A stretch of DNA of 64,000 nucleotides from Pseudomonas sp. GD03919 (lineage in GTDB: Bacteria > Pseudomonadota > Gammaproteobacteria > Pseudomonadales > Pseudomonadaceae). Where the stretch lies: positions 4,278,001-4,342,000 of the forward strand of contig NZ_CP104582.1 of assembly GCF_029814935.1 (NCBI RefSeq), read 5' to 3'. The translations under genes were made by a program, and so were the position numbers. Position 1 is the first letter of the stretch; every line of letters begins with the position of its first letter. The notes below the pieces were generated by a model. It was not told the DNA's origin. It made no database searches and worked only from the letters and a program-made list of their open reading frames with translations. Shown in pieces: positions 29,742-37,864 of this stretch.

Positions 29742-30728
29742 ATGTCCCTGGCCATCGTCCACAGCCGCGCCCAGGTCGGCGTCGAAGCCCCGGCCGTCAC
29801 CGTCGAAGCGCACCTGGCCAACGGCCTGCCATCCCTGACCCTGGTGGGCCTGCCGGAAACGGCGGTCAAGGAGAGCAAGGATCGTGTACGCAGTGCGATC
29901 CTCAATGCCGCGTTCGAATTTCCGAGCAAGCGCATCACCCTGAATCTGGCACCTGCCGATCTGCCGAAAGACGGCGGACGCTTCGATCTGGCCATCGCCC
30001 TGGGTATTCTCGCCGCCAGCGGCCAGGTGCCGGCGCAGTCACTGGATGAATACGAATGCCTGGGCGAATTGGCGCTGTCCGGCGCGGTACGCCCGGTACA
30101 GGGCGTATTACCGGCCGCCTTGGCAGCGCGCGAAGCCGGACGCACCCTGATGGTGCCGCACGCCAATGCCGAAGAAGCCAGCCTCGCTTCGGGGCTGAAG
30201 GTCATCGCCGTCGAGCATCTGTTGCAGATCGCCGCGCACCTCAACGGCAGCGCACCGCTCGACGCTTATCTCGCACAGGGGCTGCTCAGGCAGAGCCGCC
30301 CCTACCCGGATCTGGCCGAAGTCCAGGGCCAGTTGGCCGCCAAACACGCCTTGCTGGTGGCGGCTGCCGGCTCGCATAACCTGCTGCTCAGCGGCCCGCC
30401 CGGTACCGGCAAGACGCTGCTGGCCAGCCGCCTGCCAGGGCTGCTGCCGCCGTTGGACGAAAGCGAGGCGCTGCAGGTTGCGGCGATTCATTCGGTGGCC
30501 AGCCACGCGCCCCTGCAGCACTGGCCGCAACGCCCCTTTCGCACCCCGCACCATAGCGCCTCGGGGCCGGCACTGGTCGGCGGCGGCAGCCGCCCGCAAC
30601 CGGGTGAAATTACCCTGGCCCATATGGGCGTGCTGTTTCTCGACGAGTTGCCGGAATTCGACCGCAAGGTGCTGGAAGTGCTGCGCGAACCGCTGGAGAC
30701 TGGTAGGTGGTATTCTCACACTTCCTAA
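29742..30728 (+). pseudogene. comM: comM 5' part, interrupted by the integrated element
   Basis: Codes residues 1-318 and two bases of codon 319 of ComM (YifB), then ten foreign residues and a stop at 30728. The N-terminal Lon-like ChlI domain ([23 protein letters not shown]) and the AAA+ Walker A GPPGTGKT (218-225) and Walker B VLFLDE (297-302) are present. Arginine finger and C-terminal domain are left behind at 37327-37864. ComM is a hexameric branch-migration helicase that aids natural transformation and homologous integration. As it stands the protein is truncated 17 residues after Walker B and should be inactive. Confidence 0.95.
30689..30721. other. attL
   Basis: Chromosomal half ACCGCTG (30689-30695), core GA (30696-30697), then the 24-bp element arm 30698-30721 ending TATTCTCACAC. 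The arm is the inverted partner of the arm in attR (19 of 24 positions match). Confidence 0.85.
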
Positions 30729-30749
30729 GATCTCAGCAGGAAGCCCGGA

Positions 30750-32405
30750 ATGCCTACCGCATACGCCTACATACGCTACTCATCGAAAGCCCAGGGCGAA
30801 GCCGGTAGAGACTCGGTAGACCGTCAAATGGCTTCAATTCAGGCCATTACAAAGCAGCAAGGTATCGAGCTACGGACTGAAAACATTTTCAGTGATACCG
30901 GCATATCTGGCTTTGACGGCTCAAATAAAAACAAAGGAAAGCTCAAAGACCTTATCGACTTAATTATTAGTCAAAAAATCCAAGATGGTGATTTTGTCTT
31001 TGTTGAGTCAATTGACCGGCTATCACGCCAAAAAATGAGGTTATCCAAAGACCTTGTTTATACGATTTTAGACCGTGGTGTGACTCTTGTAACCACGATT
31101 GATGGTCAGATGTATAGCCGTGCCAAAGATGGTATGGAGCAAGACATTATGCTTTCTGTCATTGCTCAACGAGCACACGAAGAAAGCAAAACTAAATCTG
31201 TTCGTCGTAAATCTGCTTGGAATAGAGCTAAAACATTAGCAGATGAAGAAAAGACTATTTTTAATGGTCATAATCCACCATATGGGATTTCATTCAACAA
31301 AGAAGAAAACCGCTTTGAAATAGTAGAAGATGAGGCCCAAGAAATTAGAGACATATTTGAAAGCCTCAAATATGTTGGCGTTTCATTGACTATTAAAAAG
31401 ATAAATGAATATTCAAAGCGGAAATGGACTAACCGCAACATTAAACATCTTTTAGACACTAAATACGTTCTCGGCTCATATATGGCTCAAAGACGGAACG
31501 AAAATAAAAAGAAGGTATTTGAACGGTATATTGAAAATTATTATCCTCAAATCGTTTCATTTGAGCTATTCAATGAAGCAGTTGCTTCAATGAAAAATAG
31601 AGCACATCGTAAACATTATGGAAATCAAACCGTAGGTAGTTTGAATATTTTCAGACACTCAATTAAATGTAGCAATTGCAATGCTTCAATGCTATTTGAA
31701 AAGCAAACGAACCCCAAAGGCGTTGTTTATCCATACTTCCAATGTTTCACCAGAAAAGAATTAAAGAACGGCTGCAATCACCCGCGTTTTAGATTTGATT
31801 TGGCTTTTGGTGTGTTTTTAGAATTAGTTAAATTCGCAACCACAAGCAGCGAAACAATCAACCCTAATGAATGGAATAATGAAACGGCATCAGTCGGCTC
31901 ATTTCATAAAACCTTATTCAAACTTTTAACAAGCACAGAAAAAGACAAAAAACTCGAAAAGAAAATTTCACATGTGAAAAATCTGCTACTTGAACAAAAG
32001 AACTATCAAGACAATATCAATAAATCTTTTGAAGCATTCACAGATGGGATTATTCCAGCCGCTTTCATAAAGAAAGCTTGTGAAACAGAAATCAAGATTG
32101 AAGCATTAGAAAGAGAACTTGCGGAGCTTAATATTGAAAGCTCAACAAGGAATGTTTCTTTGATGGTTCATTCTTACAATGACATAATTGATTTATATAA
32201 GACAGAAGCCGGAAGGTTAAAAATCAATAGTTTCTTCACAAGCAACAATATTGCTTTCAGTTTTTCATTCGACCAGAAAGCCAGAGTGTTAAGATGCAAG
32301 ATTTACTATAAAGACATACATGTTGATGTTATCAATAAAAAGTTTCCACTCCATAATCCATTAAAAGAATTTGGCATTGACAATCTAAATCAATATTTCA
32401 ATTAG
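30750..32405 (+). CDS. large serine recombinase (integrase of the element)
   Basis: 551 residues. N-terminal resolvase domain: AYAYIRYSSKAQGEAGRDSVDRQ with catalytic Ser11 and Arg9, then VFVESIDRLSRQ and the long helix E. A Recombinase domain follows (GHNPPYGISFNKEENRFEIVEDEAQEIRDIFE). The zinc ribbon has cysteines CSNC at about 311-314 and a second pair Cys...GC about 25-40 residues later. A coiled coil covers about 405-455. AGGA precedes the ATG. It should cut both att sites at a 2-bp overlap. The first ~100 bp are clearly richer in GC than the rest. Only 52 bp separate the GA core from the ATG, so its promoter probably lies across the junction. Confidence 0.92.
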   Translation: MPTAYAYIRYSSKAQGEAGRDSVDRQMASIQAITKQQGIELRTENIFSDTGISGFDGSNKNKGKLKDLIDLIISQKIQDGDFVFVESIDRLSRQKMRLSKDLVYTILDRGVTLVTTIDGQMYSRAKDGMEQDIMLSVIAQRAHEESKTKSVRRKSAWNRAKTLADEEKTIFNGHNPPYGISFNKEENRFEIVEDEAQEIRDIFESLKYVGVSLTIKKINEYSKRKWTNRNIKHLLDTKYVLGSYMAQRRNENKKKVFERYIENYYPQIVSFELFNEAVASMKNRAHRKHYGNQTVGSLNIFRHSIKCSNCNASMLFEKQTNPKGVVYPYFQCFTRKELKNGCNHPRFRFDLAFGVFLELVKFATTSSETINPNEWNNETASVGSFHKTLFKLLTSTEKDKKLEKKISHVKNLLLEQKNYQDNINKSFEAFTDGIIPAAFIKKACETEIKIEALERELAELNIESSTRNVSLMVHSYNDIIDLYKTEAGRLKINSFFTSNNIAFSFSFDQKARVLRCKIYYKDIHVDVINKKFPLHNPLKEFGIDNLNQYFN

Positions 32406-32425
32406 CCACTTTGTTCAGTTATCCC

Positions 32426-32452
32426 AGGCCGCTATTCAGTGGCCTTTTTCTT
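32426..32452 (+). terminator. terminator of the recombinase gene
   Basis: Stem AGGCCGCT/AGTGGCCT (one G-T pair) with loop ATTC, then TTTTCTTTTCC. About 20 bp after the stop. Confidence 0.85.
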
Positions 32453-32454
32453 TT

Positions 32455-32546
32455 CCTATACATCCGCCCTATACATTATTTTCGCCCTATACATTGCGGC
32501 CCTATACATATGTGCCCTATACAATAAAAGCAGCCCGCCCTATACA
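32455..32546. repeat. array of six GCCCTATACA repeats upstream of mobC
   Basis: Direct repeats of GCCCTATACA(T) start at 32466, 32484, 32499, 32514 and 32537, with a partial copy (CCTATACAT) at 32455. Spacing is 15 to 23 bp and not regular. Degenerate copies in the other orientation (TGTATAGG, ATATAGGCG) lie at 32600-32626. This could be a relaxosome or MobC binding region, part of oriT, or a second replication control site. Confidence 0.8.
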
Positions 32547-32627
32547 ACTTGAAAACATTAAAATATATGGTAACTTGAAAATATAAGTAAGCAAAAGATA
32601 TAGGCGAGCAATGGGAATGTATAGGAT

Positions 32628-32642
32628 AAAAACTTCGTTTTT
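32628..32642. other. small hairpin in the candidate oriT region
   Basis: AAAAAC, loop TTC, GTTTTT. The same 14 bp recur inverted at about 36055-36068. The gap 32547-32747 between the repeats and mobC has no gene; since it precedes mobC and the relaxase, it is the most likely place for the origin of transfer. No nick site can be named. Confidence 0.45.
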
Positions 32643-32747
32643 CTCCTACCGTTCAAAAGTCTTCGACATTTTTCACTTACTTCCCTACTCGATTTTTCTG
32701 CACTGCGTTTGAAAAATAGGAGAGCAAATAATAATACAGGAGGCTAT

Positions 32748-33131
32748 ATGGCAAGAGAAAGAAAAGGTGAACAGTTCAATATAAGAATATCAAAAGAAGC
32801 AAAAGAGCATATAAAAAACAATGCTCAACTATTAGGTATCAGCCAAGCAAAGTATATCGAAAAACTGGCTATTGAAGGTTGCACAATCATTGAGGTAAGA
32901 AACGATAGATATATCGACTGGATTGAAAACAAGATGCAACCAACGATAAATAAACTCGGCAGCAACCTTAATCAAATTGCCGCAGCAGTAAATAGCGGAA
33001 ACTACAAAAAATTAGACCAGAACATCGGGACAATAAATGATGCTCGCAAAATGTTTGATTATCTCTACAAGAAATTTTCCGAATATGAAGAAAGGGTGGT
33101 GATTAAGAACAACAACAATGGGGATATATGA
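32748..33131 (+). CDS. MobC-like mobilization accessory protein
   Basis: 127 residues, MARERKGEQFNIRISKEAKEHIKNNAQLLGISQAKYIEKLAIEGCTIIEVRNDRYIDWIENKMQPTINKLGSNLNQIAAAVNSGNYKKLDQNIGTINDARKMFDYLYKKFSEYEE. The N terminus looks like a ribbon-helix-helix DNA-binding fold, and GSNLNQIAAAVNSG matches the conserved NLNQIAR motif of relaxosome MobC proteins. AGGAGG lies at the right distance from the ATG at 32748; an earlier TTG frame is ignored. It overlaps the relaxase by 4 bp. Confidence 0.85.
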   Translation: MARERKGEQFNIRISKEAKEHIKNNAQLLGISQAKYIEKLAIEGCTIIEVRNDRYIDWIENKMQPTINKLGSNLNQIAAAVNSGNYKKLDQNIGTINDARKMFDYLYKKFSEYEERVVIKNNNNGDI

Positions 33132-34789
33132 TAAGAGAAAAATTAAGCACGCAGAAAGATAAAGGAGAAACACAAAACACCCTTGGATATGCTTTGAAGA
33201 AGTCAGCACTTATAGATAGCAACAGACTTCAAACAGGAACAACGCAAGAGTTTATAGAGTTTCTAGCCAAAAAATTCGATAAGGCTTGCAAAGGCAAGCA
33301 GCACAATACCAGTTTTCACGAAATGGTATCTTTTGACCCTTCCGACAAAATCACCCCAGAACAAGCCCTTTCCATAGCCAAGGAATTGTATGAACACACT
33401 CACGGATTAAACCGTGAGCACGCTTTTGCTGTTCATACAGATAAAAAGCACATTCATGTTCATTTTGTCTGGGCACCCAGAGACTTCAACAACAAGATAT
33501 ATAATCAAGTTGATGATTTCCGTATCATAGAGCAAAAACTAACAGATTTAGAGCAGAAGCACGGACTAACACAGGTAACAAATAGAAAGTCTTTAAAGCC
33601 AGACCTTGAAACACAACCACCACAGAATAAGAAAGAACAGGCACTTGAAAAGCGTGGGTTAACATCAAAGAAAAAGCAGTTTAAAGACGAACTTAAAGAG
33701 TTAATCAATGACAGTATAAACACAACTGCCTTCTTCAATATTATGAGCTTGTCCGGCTATTCATTTATACAGAATGGGAAAACTGGTTATTCAGTAGAGA
33801 AAGAAGGTGAAACATTCAAAGCATCAGATTTGGGCATTCATTACACAGCACTTAAAAAGAATCTTGAAGAAATACACCAATTTGATGAGCTGCTTGAATA
33901 TTACAGCAAGAAGCCAAAAGAAAACCATATTGCTCTAATTCAAACGAATGAAGAAACTGACTTTATGAAAGGTAAGTGTAAAACAACCCTTCATAAAGAT
34001 TTTACCCAGCAAAGCAGCTCCAAATCGGTTGAGTATTACTATAAGAACTCAAATAACAAAAAGGCTTTTGAATATCACAAAGCCCCTTCTAAGGTTCAGT
34101 TTAATGACCTTTCCAGCAAATCAATAAAAGCCGGTTTACAGCGTCTTACTGCTGACATGAAGAAACCGGGGCCGTTGACTTGCAGCGGGCCAGACTGGGC
34201 GAAAAAGAAAATGTGGATGGAGTTTCACATGATGAATCTGGAAGCCAAAGGATTCACCTTGTCAGGCTATAAACCAACCCCGGCAGATACCAAGGAGCTT
34301 GAAATTAGAAAAGCTGAGTATGCTGAGAAGCTCAAAGAGTGGAAGAAGAACGACCAACAGAACCCACCAAAACAAGCCATAGAAGCACCTGAATCTAATC
34401 AGCCGCTACCTATGCACCAGGGCGAACCTAACCTGCTTAAAAACGATATAGAGCAGCCTATGGCATCAGGTTCTGACGAACCTGAAAAGAAGGTTGGACA
34501 GGATAGCCTTGATAACTTCAAGATTTTCGTAAATGAATTACTTGAAGAATATAGCGACTACGATGAAAAAGAAATGCTTGAAAACATTCGTGATATTTTA
34601 GAAGGCAAGGTAATTTATGATGCTGAAATTTTCGACAAGGTAATGGAGAGAGTAAAAGACTTAGATGATGAGACTAGAGAAGTCTTTTTAGAGCATATCA
34701 ACAAGTTGCTTGATGATGGTGATTCAGGTTCACCAATTGACGGAAAACTAAAGGCCGCGAGTAAGAAAAGGAACAGGTATAACATATAA
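33128..34789 (+). CDS. MOBP-type relaxase
   Basis: 553 residues. The relaxase domain occupies about 1-150: motif I NTLGYALKKSA with the likely catalytic Tyr21, SFHEMVSFDPSDKITPEQALSIAKELYEHTHGL, and the metal-binding histidines in AVHTDKKHIHVHFVW (His103, His108, His110). Compared with TraI of RP4 the order and spacing of these motifs agree, hence MOBP. The rest is charged, helical and ends in an acidic region; no helicase or primase motif is seen. It should nick one strand at oriT and stay covalently bound to the 5' end. A conjugative helper is needed, since no type IV secretion gene is present. Confidence 0.9.
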   Translation: MIREKLSTQKDKGETQNTLGYALKKSALIDSNRLQTGTTQEFIEFLAKKFDKACKGKQHNTSFHEMVSFDPSDKITPEQALSIAKELYEHTHGLNREHAFAVHTDKKHIHVHFVWAPRDFNNKIYNQVDDFRIIEQKLTDLEQKHGLTQVTNRKSLKPDLETQPPQNKKEQALEKRGLTSKKKQFKDELKELINDSINTTAFFNIMSLSGYSFIQNGKTGYSVEKEGETFKASDLGIHYTALKKNLEEIHQFDELLEYYSKKPKENHIALIQTNEETDFMKGKCKTTLHKDFTQQSSSKSVEYYYKNSNNKKAFEYHKAPSKVQFNDLSSKSIKAGLQRLTADMKKPGPLTCSGPDWAKKKMWMEFHMMNLEAKGFTLSGYKPTPADTKELEIRKAEYAEKLKEWKKNDQQNPPKQAIEAPESNQPLPMHQGEPNLLKNDIEQPMASGSDEPEKKVGQDSLDNFKIFVNELLEEYSDYDEKEMLENIRDILEGKVIYDAEIFDKVMERVKDLDDETREVFLEHINKLLDDGDSGSPIDGKLKAASKKRNRYNI

Positions 34790-34793
34790 ATAA

Positions 34794-34811
34794 AAAGCCC
34801 GTTAGGGCTTT
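34794..34811. terminator. bidirectional terminator between relaxase and rep
   Basis: Perfect stem AAAGCCC/GGGCTTT with loop GTTA, followed on the minus strand by TTATTTAT. The two genes converge here and the rep stop codon overlaps the hairpin. Confidence 0.85.
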
Positions 34812-35682
34812 AGAATGGTAATGCTTCATCACAGATAGATGATTCATCAGTATTGCTTTTAGGTTTCTCTGCAACCGTTGGTAAAAAACCTTCCCTTCTT
34901 TTTGGAAAAGACACTTTATAGCCCTCAATTTCTTTTTCAGGTTTAATCGTCTCAACTGCTTTAAGAAACTTAAGGTCTATCAATTCCTTGTGTGCTTTGT
35001 TTATCTTTTTTACAACGTCTTGCCTGCCAAAACTTTCAGCCTGCAATCTCTTCAATATCTCATTAATTTTAAATGTTGAGTTATTGAATTGGTTTGTTGT
35101 GTAGAACATAAAAAGTATTTTTGCGTAATCGCTCTTTATTTTCTTGTAGTCGCTCAAGCAAATGTTAAAGATTAGATTTGCATCATATTCATAAAACTGC
35201 TCAAAGAATTTACTAAAAGTAATTTTTATTTCTTCTCTGTTTTCTTTGTTTTCTTCCACATGTGTAAGTAAATGGCATTTATATGTTTTCGGGCCATAAC
35301 TAAACGCAAGGTAGAAATCAAGCATATTCTCTAATGACTTATGTATCTTCTCTATGTAAACTTTTTTGTTGCTTGGGTGCACTTTATGAAATTTCATAAA
35401 ATGATTTAAGTTAATCGTGAAAGTCAATCTATCACTTTTTAACTTCATTTTGAGCAGATAATAGAAAACATCAAAGTCGAAATTTACAGACAATGGATAG
35501 AAACGCATTTCCACATTCTGGAAACCATAGAACCTATCAATGATTATTTCTTTTCTTATTTTCTTTCCAGTAGTCACGGACTGGAATATTGGAAGGTGAA
35601 GAATTGATTTAGCGAAAGAAACAAAGTCGTCTTGTGCGTAGATTTCTTTTTCACTTTGTAAACTGTTAAATATGTATGTCAT
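34810..35682 (-). CDS. probable plasmid replication initiator (Rep, winged-helix type)
   Basis: 290 residues, basic. Two regions look like the paired winged helices of Rep_3/RepA initiators: LSVNFDFDVFYYLLKMKLKSDRLTFTINLNHFMKFH (about 63-98) and LSDYKKIKSDYAKILFMFYTTNQFNNSTFKINEILKRLQAESFGRQDVVKKINKAHKELIDLKFL (about 176-240), where S-DYAKILF-MFY parallels the KSxYAxRLYxLL motif. No relaxase or helicase motif is present. AAGGAG precedes the ATG. Five 22-23 bp iterons lie just upstream. The family call rests on these patterns and the iterons, not on a search. Confidence 0.65.
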   Translation of the reverse strand: MTYIFNSLQSEKEIYAQDDFVSFAKSILHLPIFQSVTTGKKIRKEIIIDRFYGFQNVEMRFYPLSVNFDFDVFYYLLKMKLKSDRLTFTINLNHFMKFHKVHPSNKKVYIEKIHKSLENMLDFYLAFSYGPKTYKCHLLTHVEENKENREEIKITFSKFFEQFYEYDANLIFNICLSDYKKIKSDYAKILFMFYTTNQFNNSTFKINEILKRLQAESFGRQDVVKKINKAHKELIDLKFLKAVETIKPEKEIEGYKVSFPKRREGFLPTVAEKPKSNTDESSICDEALPF

Positions 35683-35766
35683 ATTGCTCCTTATTTGATT
35701 ATATAGTTATATCAAACCATATAATTCCAATAAGTCAATAGAACACCCGTCCTAATATTATTATGT

Positions 35767-35878
35767 ATCATATAGCCGCCACCATATCATCATAGAGCCA
35801 TACATATATCCATCATAAGGCCACCCCCTTATGTATCATAGAGCCACCCCCATATACATCATAGAGCCACCCCCATAT
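35767..35878. repeat. iteron array, probable oriV
   Basis: Five direct repeats of ATCATAGAGCCACCCCCATAT start at 35767, 35789, 35812, 35835 and 35858, a 22-23 bp period (two helical turns). The fourth and fifth copies are identical over 21 bp; the first three differ at a few positions. They lie 85-200 bp upstream of rep, with a very AT-rich stretch (35683-35760) between, the usual layout of an iteron origin. Confidence 0.88.
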
Positions 35879-35880
35879 GC

Positions 35881-36196
35881 CCCTAAATTTTGGCTTAAAA
35901 TCAGCCTTAAATAACTGTCCTAAGTATCTTTTAAGTATTTATAAGAAGACTTGAAAACTTTTTCGAGTGCAGCAGAGCACGCCCTAACGGGCTAAAACCA
36001 CTGGAATAAGCGAACGAAGTTCGCAGATTTGAAGAGCGAAGCGAAGCAAATCATAAAACGAAGTTTTTCAGTGCGTTTTGCATAATGGTTATTAACACTT
36101 GATTATTGAAAATATATTTAAAAAGCTCCTCCGACTTTCTTGACATTATATATTTATATGGGAAAATATAAATAAGAGAATAAGAAAGAGGGATAT
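35881..36196. other. structured non-coding region between iterons and the 207-residue gene
   Basis: No gene. Three hairpins can be drawn: GCCC/GGGC around TAAC at 35981-35992 (13 bp identical, inverted, to the terminator at 34797), GCGAAC/GTTCGC at 36010-36024, and GATTTG/CAAATC at 36026-36052 enclosing GAAGCGAAGC. A TTGACA box followed by an AT-rich run at about 36139 may be the promoter of the next gene. Confidence 0.6.
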
Positions 36197-36820
36197 ATGA
36201 GTGGAGATAATAAGAAGTTTGATATTTATGTTGGTGAAATCAACGACCTTTTAGTTTCTTATGTCAATAAAGAAACTGCTTATGATGTTTGTAGCGTGTA
36301 TTTGATTGATGATTATGACGCTTATTTGTCAATCATCGAAAAAGTAAAAGAGATTGAAAGCAAATATTCATTTGCTAGAAAAGTCTCTTTTATTGAAGTT
36401 CCTAGTAAAACCTTCGCAAAGATAAACGCAACGAATTCCCCATCATTTAAACTTATTAAGTCAAAGAAGTGCTCTGCCCTTCTTCTTAATAGTTATGTGA
36501 GTGAAAACCCTAATCTTGCAGAAATTTTCACAATGGAAAATGTGAGTGCAGGGAAAATCAAATTATATGAGAAGATTTTTCAAGATTGTCTTTATCTCTC
36601 ATATAAAGATTATGCAACTAAAGAAACAGTAATAATCAAAAGAAATATTGGAATTGGAACTGTAATTTTCTCCAATAATCATTTTGCAACTGAAAAAAAA
36701 GCAACAATGATGAGAATTGATAGAAAAGAAAATCAGCCAAATGTCATCAAATACAGAGATTGGTATTTGTTAGAAATGGACAATGACATTCAACAATTAG
36801 TCAATATGGTTGAGTGCTGA
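36197..36820 (+). CDS. unknown protein of the element (207 residues)
   Basis: I do not recognise it. MSGDNKKFDIYVGEINDLLVSYVNKETAYDVCSVYLIDDYDAYLSIIEKVKEIESKYSFARKVSFIEVPSK is predicted mixed alpha/beta; there is no signal peptide, membrane segment, repeated motif or cysteine cluster. A purine-rich Shine-Dalgarno (AGAGGG) precedes the ATG. It is AT-rich like the rest of the element. A hairpin of 9-bp arms (ACGCTTGAA/TTCAAGCGT, 36837-36858) follows and separates it from the converging gene. It could be cargo, for example a defence or stress protein, but nothing seen proves this. Confidence 0.75.
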   Translation: MSGDNKKFDIYVGEINDLLVSYVNKETAYDVCSVYLIDDYDAYLSIIEKVKEIESKYSFARKVSFIEVPSKTFAKINATNSPSFKLIKSKKCSALLLNSYVSENPNLAEIFTMENVSAGKIKLYEKIFQDCLYLSYKDYATKETVIIKRNIGIGTVIFSNNHFATEKKATMMRIDRKENQPNVIKYRDWYLLEMDNDIQQLVNMVEC

Positions 36821-36836
36821 CGGCTGGTCATTTAGA

Positions 36837-36858
36837 ACGCTTGAACGAGTTCAAGCGT
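36837..36858. terminator. hairpin between converging unknown genes
   Basis: Perfect arms ACGCTTGAA/TTCAAGCGT with loop CGAG. No strong T run on either side, so termination is probable but not certain. Confidence 0.55.
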
Positions 36859-36872
36859 CCTAAAAGACCTTA

Positions 36873-37223
36873 CTATTTTATTCCAAGTATCGCCCGACCT
36901 TCGCTTATGGCATTGGAAAAAACTAACCAATGCTTTTCTCGAATAATTTCTCTTGGTAATACATAGCCTGCTATATTTTCTATCCTAAATAAAATATCAG
37001 ATGCATCAACAAAAGAGCCTCCTTTACAAAGAAATAAGAAGTATGAAACTGCTACAGACATTACCGCTTCATCTTCATTCATCTTGGCTGCCCAAGCAGT
37101 TTCAACTAATTTAGAGTATTCAATCGCACTAGGAAAAATATGGATGTCAATCTTGTATTCTTTTCTTAACTTCGACCCTATTTGTTCGATGTAAATATTT
37201 TTATTTTTACTAAATCCGAACAT
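36873..37223 (-). CDS. unknown protein at the right end of the element (116 residues)
   Basis: MFGFSKNKNIYIEQIGSKLRKEYKIDIHIFPSAIEYSKLVETAWAAKMNEDEAVMSVAVSYFLFLCKGGSFVDASDILFRIENIAGYVLPREIIREKHWLVFSNAISEGRAILGIK. Soluble, probably helical, with one moderately hydrophobic stretch (AVMSVAVSYFLFLC). GGAG lies six bases before the ATG at 37223; a start at 37235 is also possible. The open frame upstream runs through attR into comM and is not meaningful there. No family recognised. Confidence 0.65.
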   Translation of the reverse strand: MFGFSKNKNIYIEQIGSKLRKEYKIDIHIFPSAIEYSKLVETAWAAKMNEDEAVMSVAVSYFLFLCKGGSFVDASDILFRIENIAGYVLPREIIREKHWLVFSNAISEGRAILGIK

Positions 37224-37300
37224 CACGCACTCCATAATTACTGCGACGTAATGGCTCAATGATATATCGGTGGTAAGGGTAAAGACCACAGGTGATAAAT

Positions 37301-37333
37301 GTGTGAGATTCACCCCTACCATTCGAAAGCGGT
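37301..37333. other. attR
   Basis: Element arm 37301-37324 (starts GTGTGAGATT, contains CCCCTACC), core GA (37325-37326), chromosomal half AAGCGGT (37327-37333). Joined with attL, the chromosomal halves give ACCGCTGGAAAGCGGT, itself a 6-bp inverted repeat around the core. Confidence 0.85.
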
Positions 37334-37864
37334 CATATCGTGATTGCCCGGGCACGCGACAAGGTGCGTTTCCCGGCGCGTTTTCAGTTGGTGGCGGCGA
37401 TGAATCCCTGCCCGTGTGGCTACCTGGGTGACCCAAGCAACCGCTGTCGCTGCACGCCGGAGCAGATCCAGCGCTACCGCGCCAAGCTGTCGGGGCCACT
37501 GCTCGACCGCATCGACCTGCACCTTACGGTAGCCCGCGAAACAACGGCCCTCAATGCCGCACCGCAGGATGGCGAAAGCACCGCTCAGGCCGCCGCCAAG
37601 GTCGCGCAGGCCCGCGCCCGGCAACTGCAGCGCCAGGGCGTGGCCAACGCCTTTCTCGACTTGCCCGGTCTGCGCCAGCATTGCGCCCTGGGCGATGCAG
37701 ACCGGCAGTGGCTGGAGGGCGCCTGCGAACGCCTGGGTCTGTCCCTGCGCGCGGCCCATCGCGTGCTCAAGGTCGCGCGAACCCTGGCCGACCTGGCAGA
37801 GGAACAGCACATCAGCCGTGCCCACCTGGCCGAAGCGCTGCAGTATCGCCCCGCAGCAGGGTGA
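37327..37864 (+). pseudogene. comM: comM 3' part, separated from its start
   Basis: Codes the last base of codon 319 and residues 320-497 of ComM: [66 protein letters not shown], then the C-terminal helical lid ending EALQYRPAAG. The cysteine-rich NPCPCG...CRC loop and [10 protein letters not shown] sensor region are intact. It has no start of its own. The two parts together are 1,494 bp, a multiple of three, so excision through the GA core would restore the gene exactly. Confidence 0.95.

Follow-up and report, generated by a model that had tools for sequence, protein, structure and literature searches.

The comM gene of Pseudomonas sp. GD03919 is interrupted by AT-rich DNA carrying genes for integration, mobilization and replication, and the question raised by this locus is what kind of entity combines them and how it persists. 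The initial annotation of the window (the whole 64,000-nucleotide stretch of DNA analysed here) read it as a self-integrating mobilizable plasmid, able to live freely in other hosts and left stranded in this Pseudomonas, in a combination to which no name could be given. We consider it very probable (roughly 0.86) that it is instead an integrative and mobilizable element (IME), kept and moved by the steps set out below. Its features are collected in Table 1.

Table 1. Features of the comM locus and of the element inserted in it (positions in the window)
Feature	Position	Strand	Basis or remark
comM (yifB) 5' part	29742..30697	+	codons 1-318 and two bases of codon 319, up to the GA core; TIGR00368, 425.7 bits
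attL core dinucleotide GA	30696..30697	.	comparison with empty sites L053, L024
Element, 6,629 bp with one GA	30698..37326	.	GC profile, empty-site comparison, joined ends
Large serine recombinase (integrase), 551 aa	30750..32405	+	PF00239, 5.7e-17; PF07508, 7.1e-08; relatives at the same site
Five CCTATACA-type direct repeats beside candidate oriT	32464..32546	.	
Candidate oriT	32600..32715	.	hairpin TAGGATAAAAACTTCGTTTTTCTCCTA at 32622-32648; conserved in related loci
NikA/MobC-like accessory protein	32709..33131	+	PF21983, 8.3e-11; internal ATG at 32748 is a likely start
Relaxase, 553 aa, motif HTDKKHIHVH	33128..34789	+	PF03432, 1.3e-19
Predicted Rep_3-type replication initiator, 290 aa	34810..35682	-	
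Iteron array, 23 bp x 5.2, candidate origin	35762..35880	.	22-bp arrays before related rep in L006, L074, L075, L076
orf5, 207 aa	36197..36820	+	cargo; 94% identical to an ORF of L076 (element at another site); no Pfam match
orf6, about 120 aa	36873..37235	-	predicted start
attR core dinucleotide GA	37325..37326	.	comparison with empty sites L053, L024
comM 3' part	37327..37864	+	TIGR00368, 200.3 bits

The borders were placed by comparison with empty sites, which are provided by the intact comM of a same-species genome (L053, 497 aa) and of the close relative G012 (L024). Both read CCGCTG-GA-AAGCGGTCAT, while the element begins as CCGCTG-GA-GACTGGTAGGTGG and ends as CCCCTACCATTC-GA-AAGCGGTCAT. 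GA, the first two bases of codon 319, is all that attL, attR and the empty site have in common, and this fixes the element at the limits given in Table 1; a left boundary at GGT (30702) had been our first reading and was dropped after the comparison. The unit annotated initially, 30696..37326, equals the element plus both copies of the GA core, and its AT-richness and its position inside comM were likewise borne out: GC is 0.29-0.45 over 30.75-37.2 kb against about 0.65-0.66 in the surroundings, and TIGR00368 matches both halves of a gene that is intact in L053 and L024. At the level of sequence, then, the occupied and empty sites show a site-specific insertion with a GA core and the disruption of comM. 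The source genome is a single contig of 4.66 Mb in which the integrase is present once.

Joining the ends of the element gives an attP, GTGTGAGATTCACCCCTACCATTC-GA-GACTGGTAGGTGGTATTCTCACAC, that is a near-palindrome of 24+GA+24 with arms identical at 19 of 24 positions, a value that 20,000 draws made at random from the element's bases never reached. A near-palindromic attP is the form expected for a large serine integrase, and the 2-bp common core together with the palindromic attP fits this class of recombinase. Pfam confirmed the large serine recombinase of the initial annotation, with the full set of resolvase, recombinase and zinc ribbon domains; PF00239 and PF07508 score above their cut-offs, and the zinc ribbon, PF13408, reaches 22.7 bits, under its cut-off of 25.3.

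A search for comM loci by recombinase, as the initial annotation had proposed, found relatives at the same position. The scan of 84,980 species genomes with the integrase returned seven loci, one 97% identical (P. toyotomiensis) and six at 64-65%, and the integrase follows the same comM codon in 7/7; the 3' half of comM lies within the fetched DNA in five of them, and the contigs of L002 and L003 end before it. The site extends to more distant integrases, one at 44% identity (G052) with both comM halves present and another at 40% (G211, L055:8762-11108) inserted at the same codon in the opposite orientation, its integrase adjoining the 3' half. Ten further loci with integrases of 32-41% identity (L056-L065) have no comM in the 10.8-19 kb fetched, so comM targeting belongs to part of the integrase family.

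An IME should possess its own integration module and bounding att sites, as this element does, and a relaxase without mating-pore genes, which is what we found among the six main ORFs scanned (PF03432 present, no match to conjugation-channel families). Of the MobC and MOBP relaxase pair annotated initially, the NikA/MobC-like protein and the relaxase stand by Pfam, and the MOBP class found little backing: the relaxase scores 33.9 bits against NCBIfam TraI/MobP, whose cut-off is 250, with the three-His motif present. The CCTATACA array, a second array besides the iterons, adjoins the candidate oriT rather than rep, and its repeats are possible MobC binding sites.

The candidate oriT block is 93-96% conserved in L003, L006, L007 and L074 and 65-67% in L056, L079 and L077 (L010, L011, L013 and L054 are overlapping copies of candidate-oriT loci). 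It has no match in L005, L008, L076 and L078, all of which have mobC and relaxase genes. These four carry more distant relaxases, yet L056, L079 and L077, with equally distant relaxases, have the block. Block-bearing loci may also carry quite different integrases, a serine integrase of only 27% identity in L074 and a tyrosine integrase in L077. L005 and L008, whose integrases are 92-99% identical to those of block-bearing loci, carry a relaxase of another type (about 40%) and no block, so that here too the block follows the relaxase, not the integrase. The candidate oriT block thus appears to track relaxase type rather than integrase type. Beyond the iterons, window positions 35990-36070 are strongly conserved in L006, L074, L075 and L076 and carry a AAAACGAAGTTTTT palindrome, the core of which recurs in the candidate oriT hairpin.

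The replication module is less easily classified. Repeat arrays lie upstream of rep in 5/5 loci examined, the window included, and both iterons beside the rep gene and two winged-helix domains, features of Rep_3 (RepE/pi) initiators, are present. The window's own Rep has no Pfam match; PF01051 recovers 9/20 members of the Rep alignment at E<=1 (best 1.7e-5), the window's protein not among them, and the alignment leaves out one of the 20 Rep matches, the partial protein P0019. Searching the Rep sequence against PDB sequences found no relative, and one emerged by fold comparison only, from a structure model of middling confidence (pLDDT 64). The iteron origin of the initial annotation therefore holds as an array upstream of rep, and its initiator, lacking a Pfam match of its own, is predicted to be of Rep_3 type from its relatives and its fold.

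Of the remaining genes, orf5 has homologues in one cluster only, and a 728-bp stretch containing it is 96% identical between the window and L076; the longer orf6 frame that was scanned gave no family match. Rfam found nothing in the element, PADLOC nothing for three proteins, and the six main ORFs contain no transposase families. A promoter scan returned 12 sites against a shuffle mean of 21.6, fewer than in shuffles, and was for that reason not used.

The sequence shows that the serine integrase recombined attP with the attB at codon 319 of comM, by which comM was broken and each end of the element came to carry a GA. Excision would yield a 6.6-kb circle that Rep could maintain temporarily at the iteron array, and MobC and the relaxase would nick this circle at oriT. 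It would then leave through the conjugation channel of a helper element, invoked here because no such channel is recognised in the element itself, and re-integrate at comM in the recipient.

A decayed, immobile remnant would agree with the fact that a free form is not known and that no excision factor (RDF) is recognised in the element. We give this little credence, since the frames of integrase, relaxase and Rep are open over their full length, the att sites are clean on both sides, a 97% identical integrase occupies the same site in P. toyotomiensis, and the orf5 stretch is 96% identical to that of an element at another site.

Slightly less probable still is a true plasmid, free in other hosts and stranded in Pseudomonas, where its origin fails. 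This is the initial annotation's scenario, to which the Rep_3-type initiator with iterons and a base composition far more AT-rich than the host lend some plausibility; against it, five related elements are AT-rich as well (33-41% GC). The proposed search for free-living relatives found none close: neither DNA nor the window's Rep matched any of 72,556 plasmids, and all integrase and relaxase matches were below 60% identity, those listed (20/23 and 2/2 records) below 35%, in collections that, like sets of one genome per species, under-sample small plasmids. The distant Rep relative P0020 matches plasmid RepB-type initiators, at 23-25% in the 10 listed records out of 326 (E<=0.1). The family is found in Pseudomonas genomes instead, the integrase in 14/398 (E<=1e-60) and Rep in 8/398 (E<=1e-10), the window's own included in each count and with G073 and G201, the genomes of L007 and L006, not independent of those loci. 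In a class-wide sample of 274 genomes, none of the 273 others matched the integrase (E<=1e-80) or Rep (E<=1e-8). A set of 5.8 billion proteins held 200 integrase relatives at E<=1e-50 among 7,995 candidates scored, and in the 120 of these that were listed, the organism-named relatives are all Pseudomonas except one from Vreelandella aquamarina (41%). It is the want of close plasmid relatives, together with a family seen in these samples only in Pseudomonas, that disfavours the stranded plasmid. Phage records held distant integrases only (all 53 below 60%), and IMG/VR searches with integrase and Rep gave 7 and 14 stretches fitting a pattern, of which tblastn confirmed 0. The 4.8-kb contig L075, which has a related rep, was examined for circularity and not taken as a plasmid: there is no overlap between its ends, and the sequence they match recurs in other loci.

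Least probable of all is an older rep-mob insertion that a separate integrase element came to carry: the mob-rep core does occur with other integrases (serine in L074 and L076, tyrosine in L077 and L078 with distant Rep), but L006 has its genes in the same order, int-mobC-relaxase-rep, at the same comM site, one att pair encloses all genes, and module exchange fits the pattern better than nesting. The initial annotation is supported in describing one self-integrating unit that targets comM and includes genes for mobilization and replication, and rep and mob are not a separate earlier insertion at this locus.

The IME reading leads to the question of how such elements are assembled. At the DNA level, L006 and L007 agree at 87% in the integrase and at 84% in the oriT-mobC-relaxase region; in the rep gene they do not match, and past it there is a single matching patch of 58 bp. 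L006 has a Rep_3-type gene. The protein encoded by L005, L007 and L008 is 526-528 aa long and matches PF05840 (phage GPA, 3.4e-32 to 3.8e-33); its class rests, for L007, on this Pfam family since a strict H-U-H pattern was not found there. The integrases of L003-L008 are nonetheless 92-99% identical. In L074 and L076 the mob-rep core is joined to other serine integrases that are only distantly related, and it lies near a peptidase gene (PF01432 in L074, similar by eye in L076). The L006/L007 mismatch over rep, the other integrases of L074 and L076 and the orf5 stretch common to L076 indicate that modules move independently; by this comparison the element is a mosaic whose integration, mobilization, replication and cargo modules can be exchanged. 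Neither mobC nor the relaxase nor rep finds a match in L004. A 548-aa protein (L004:12093-13739, L075:887-2533), conserved in related elements and without a Pfam match, is possibly an unrecognised mobilization or replication protein, and a 612-aa protein of L057 resembles it by eye.

The target gene proved to be broken widely. A 497-aa comM query matches 394/398 Pseudomonas genomes at E<=1e-20, and the 66 genomes whose best match was weaker than 1e-230 were picked by eye and re-searched, which makes the insertion counts lower bounds. At least 43 of the 394 have one or more comM insertions larger than 0.9 kb whose two flanks lie on the same contig; of the 46 gaps, one (G183, codons 442-496) is a repeated 3' fragment and not a clear insertion. 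An insertion or contig break separates comM pieces in 56/66, the rest being frameshift-like or single pieces. The breaks cluster at codons about 70-87 (8 genomes), 208-216 (12, of which G085 is assigned only through the mean position of a wide gap), 280-284 (20), 300-304 (6, G049 and G101 loosely placed), 317-321 (5) and 343-358 (4); outside these, single genomes have their break at about 120 and at 250-262, and four genomes are unplaced. Codons 317-321 are the site of the window's element, and 5/5 genomes there have a member of its integrase family at the break. For G240, whose only comM piece stops at codon 318, the 398-genome search gave no integrase match. In L003, L005 and L007, comM is also broken at a second place.

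Insertion sizes vary by cluster, from about 4-11 kb near codon 215 to 15-44 kb near 281. A second type of serine recombinase (27-29% identical) lies in comM at codon about 215 (L005:2775-4000, L080:985-2151), and L080 also has a phage-GPA-type replication gene (PF05840). Five ORFs of L081, a locus from the 26.5-kb comM insertion of G024, gave no transposase match, and we therefore do not claim the insertions at codons 281-284 as Tn7-like.

Repeated breakage of comM at multiple sites points to a possibly genus-wide conflict in Pseudomonas between mobile DNA and transformation, of the kind described in Acinetobacter (PMC11472951). A broader model, which we offer tentatively and with the odds somewhat against it as a whole, would join an undescribed Pseudomonas family of small IMEs with plug-in integration, mobilization and replication modules, in which the replication mode itself (iteron-type Rep_3 or phage-GPA-type, a rolling-circle class) is exchanged between elements with integrases more than 90% identical, to several unrelated element classes that converge on comM at distinct codons because loss of ComM lowers their removal by the host through transformation. 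Searches of the open-access PMC literature turned up no account of this family, of the exchange of its replication module or of comM breakage across the genus. Related integrase and mob genes with different replication genes at one site amount to a natural experiment on why IMEs carry replication genes, and the integrase, whose att sites are short and defined, could serve in engineering Pseudomonas genomes.

Among the systems with which the element can be compared, AbaR islands move by DDE transposition, and SGI1 has a tyrosine integrase and is much larger. The combination that the initial annotation could not name is of a kind already known, the IME; IMEs with Rep_3 initiators and IMEs whose serine integrases disrupt dispensable genes have both been reviewed (PMC5704250). 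The streptococcal serine-integrase IMEs treated there share with the window's element a serine integrase, a specific site and the disruption of a dispensable gene, and can hold relaxase and replication genes; they differ in hosts and targets, and the part of the review drawn on here lists Rep_3 for SGI1 and BcenGI2, not for them. These two mobilizable islands are alike in encoding a Rep_3 initiator (PMC5704250), whereas SGI1 integrates at the 3' end of trmE (PMC8409611). The same part of this 2017 review describes the replication of excised IMEs as never studied (PMC5704250), and that of SGI1 has been studied since (PMC7433901). Mobile elements disrupt comM in 22% of the Acinetobacter strains of one study, and the Tn7-like AbaR islands have this disruption in common with the element described here (PMC11472951). 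Unlike them, the Pseudomonas element, in whose six main ORFs neither a transposase nor the DDE transposase set was recognised, carries a serine integrase and is bounded by a 2-bp core.
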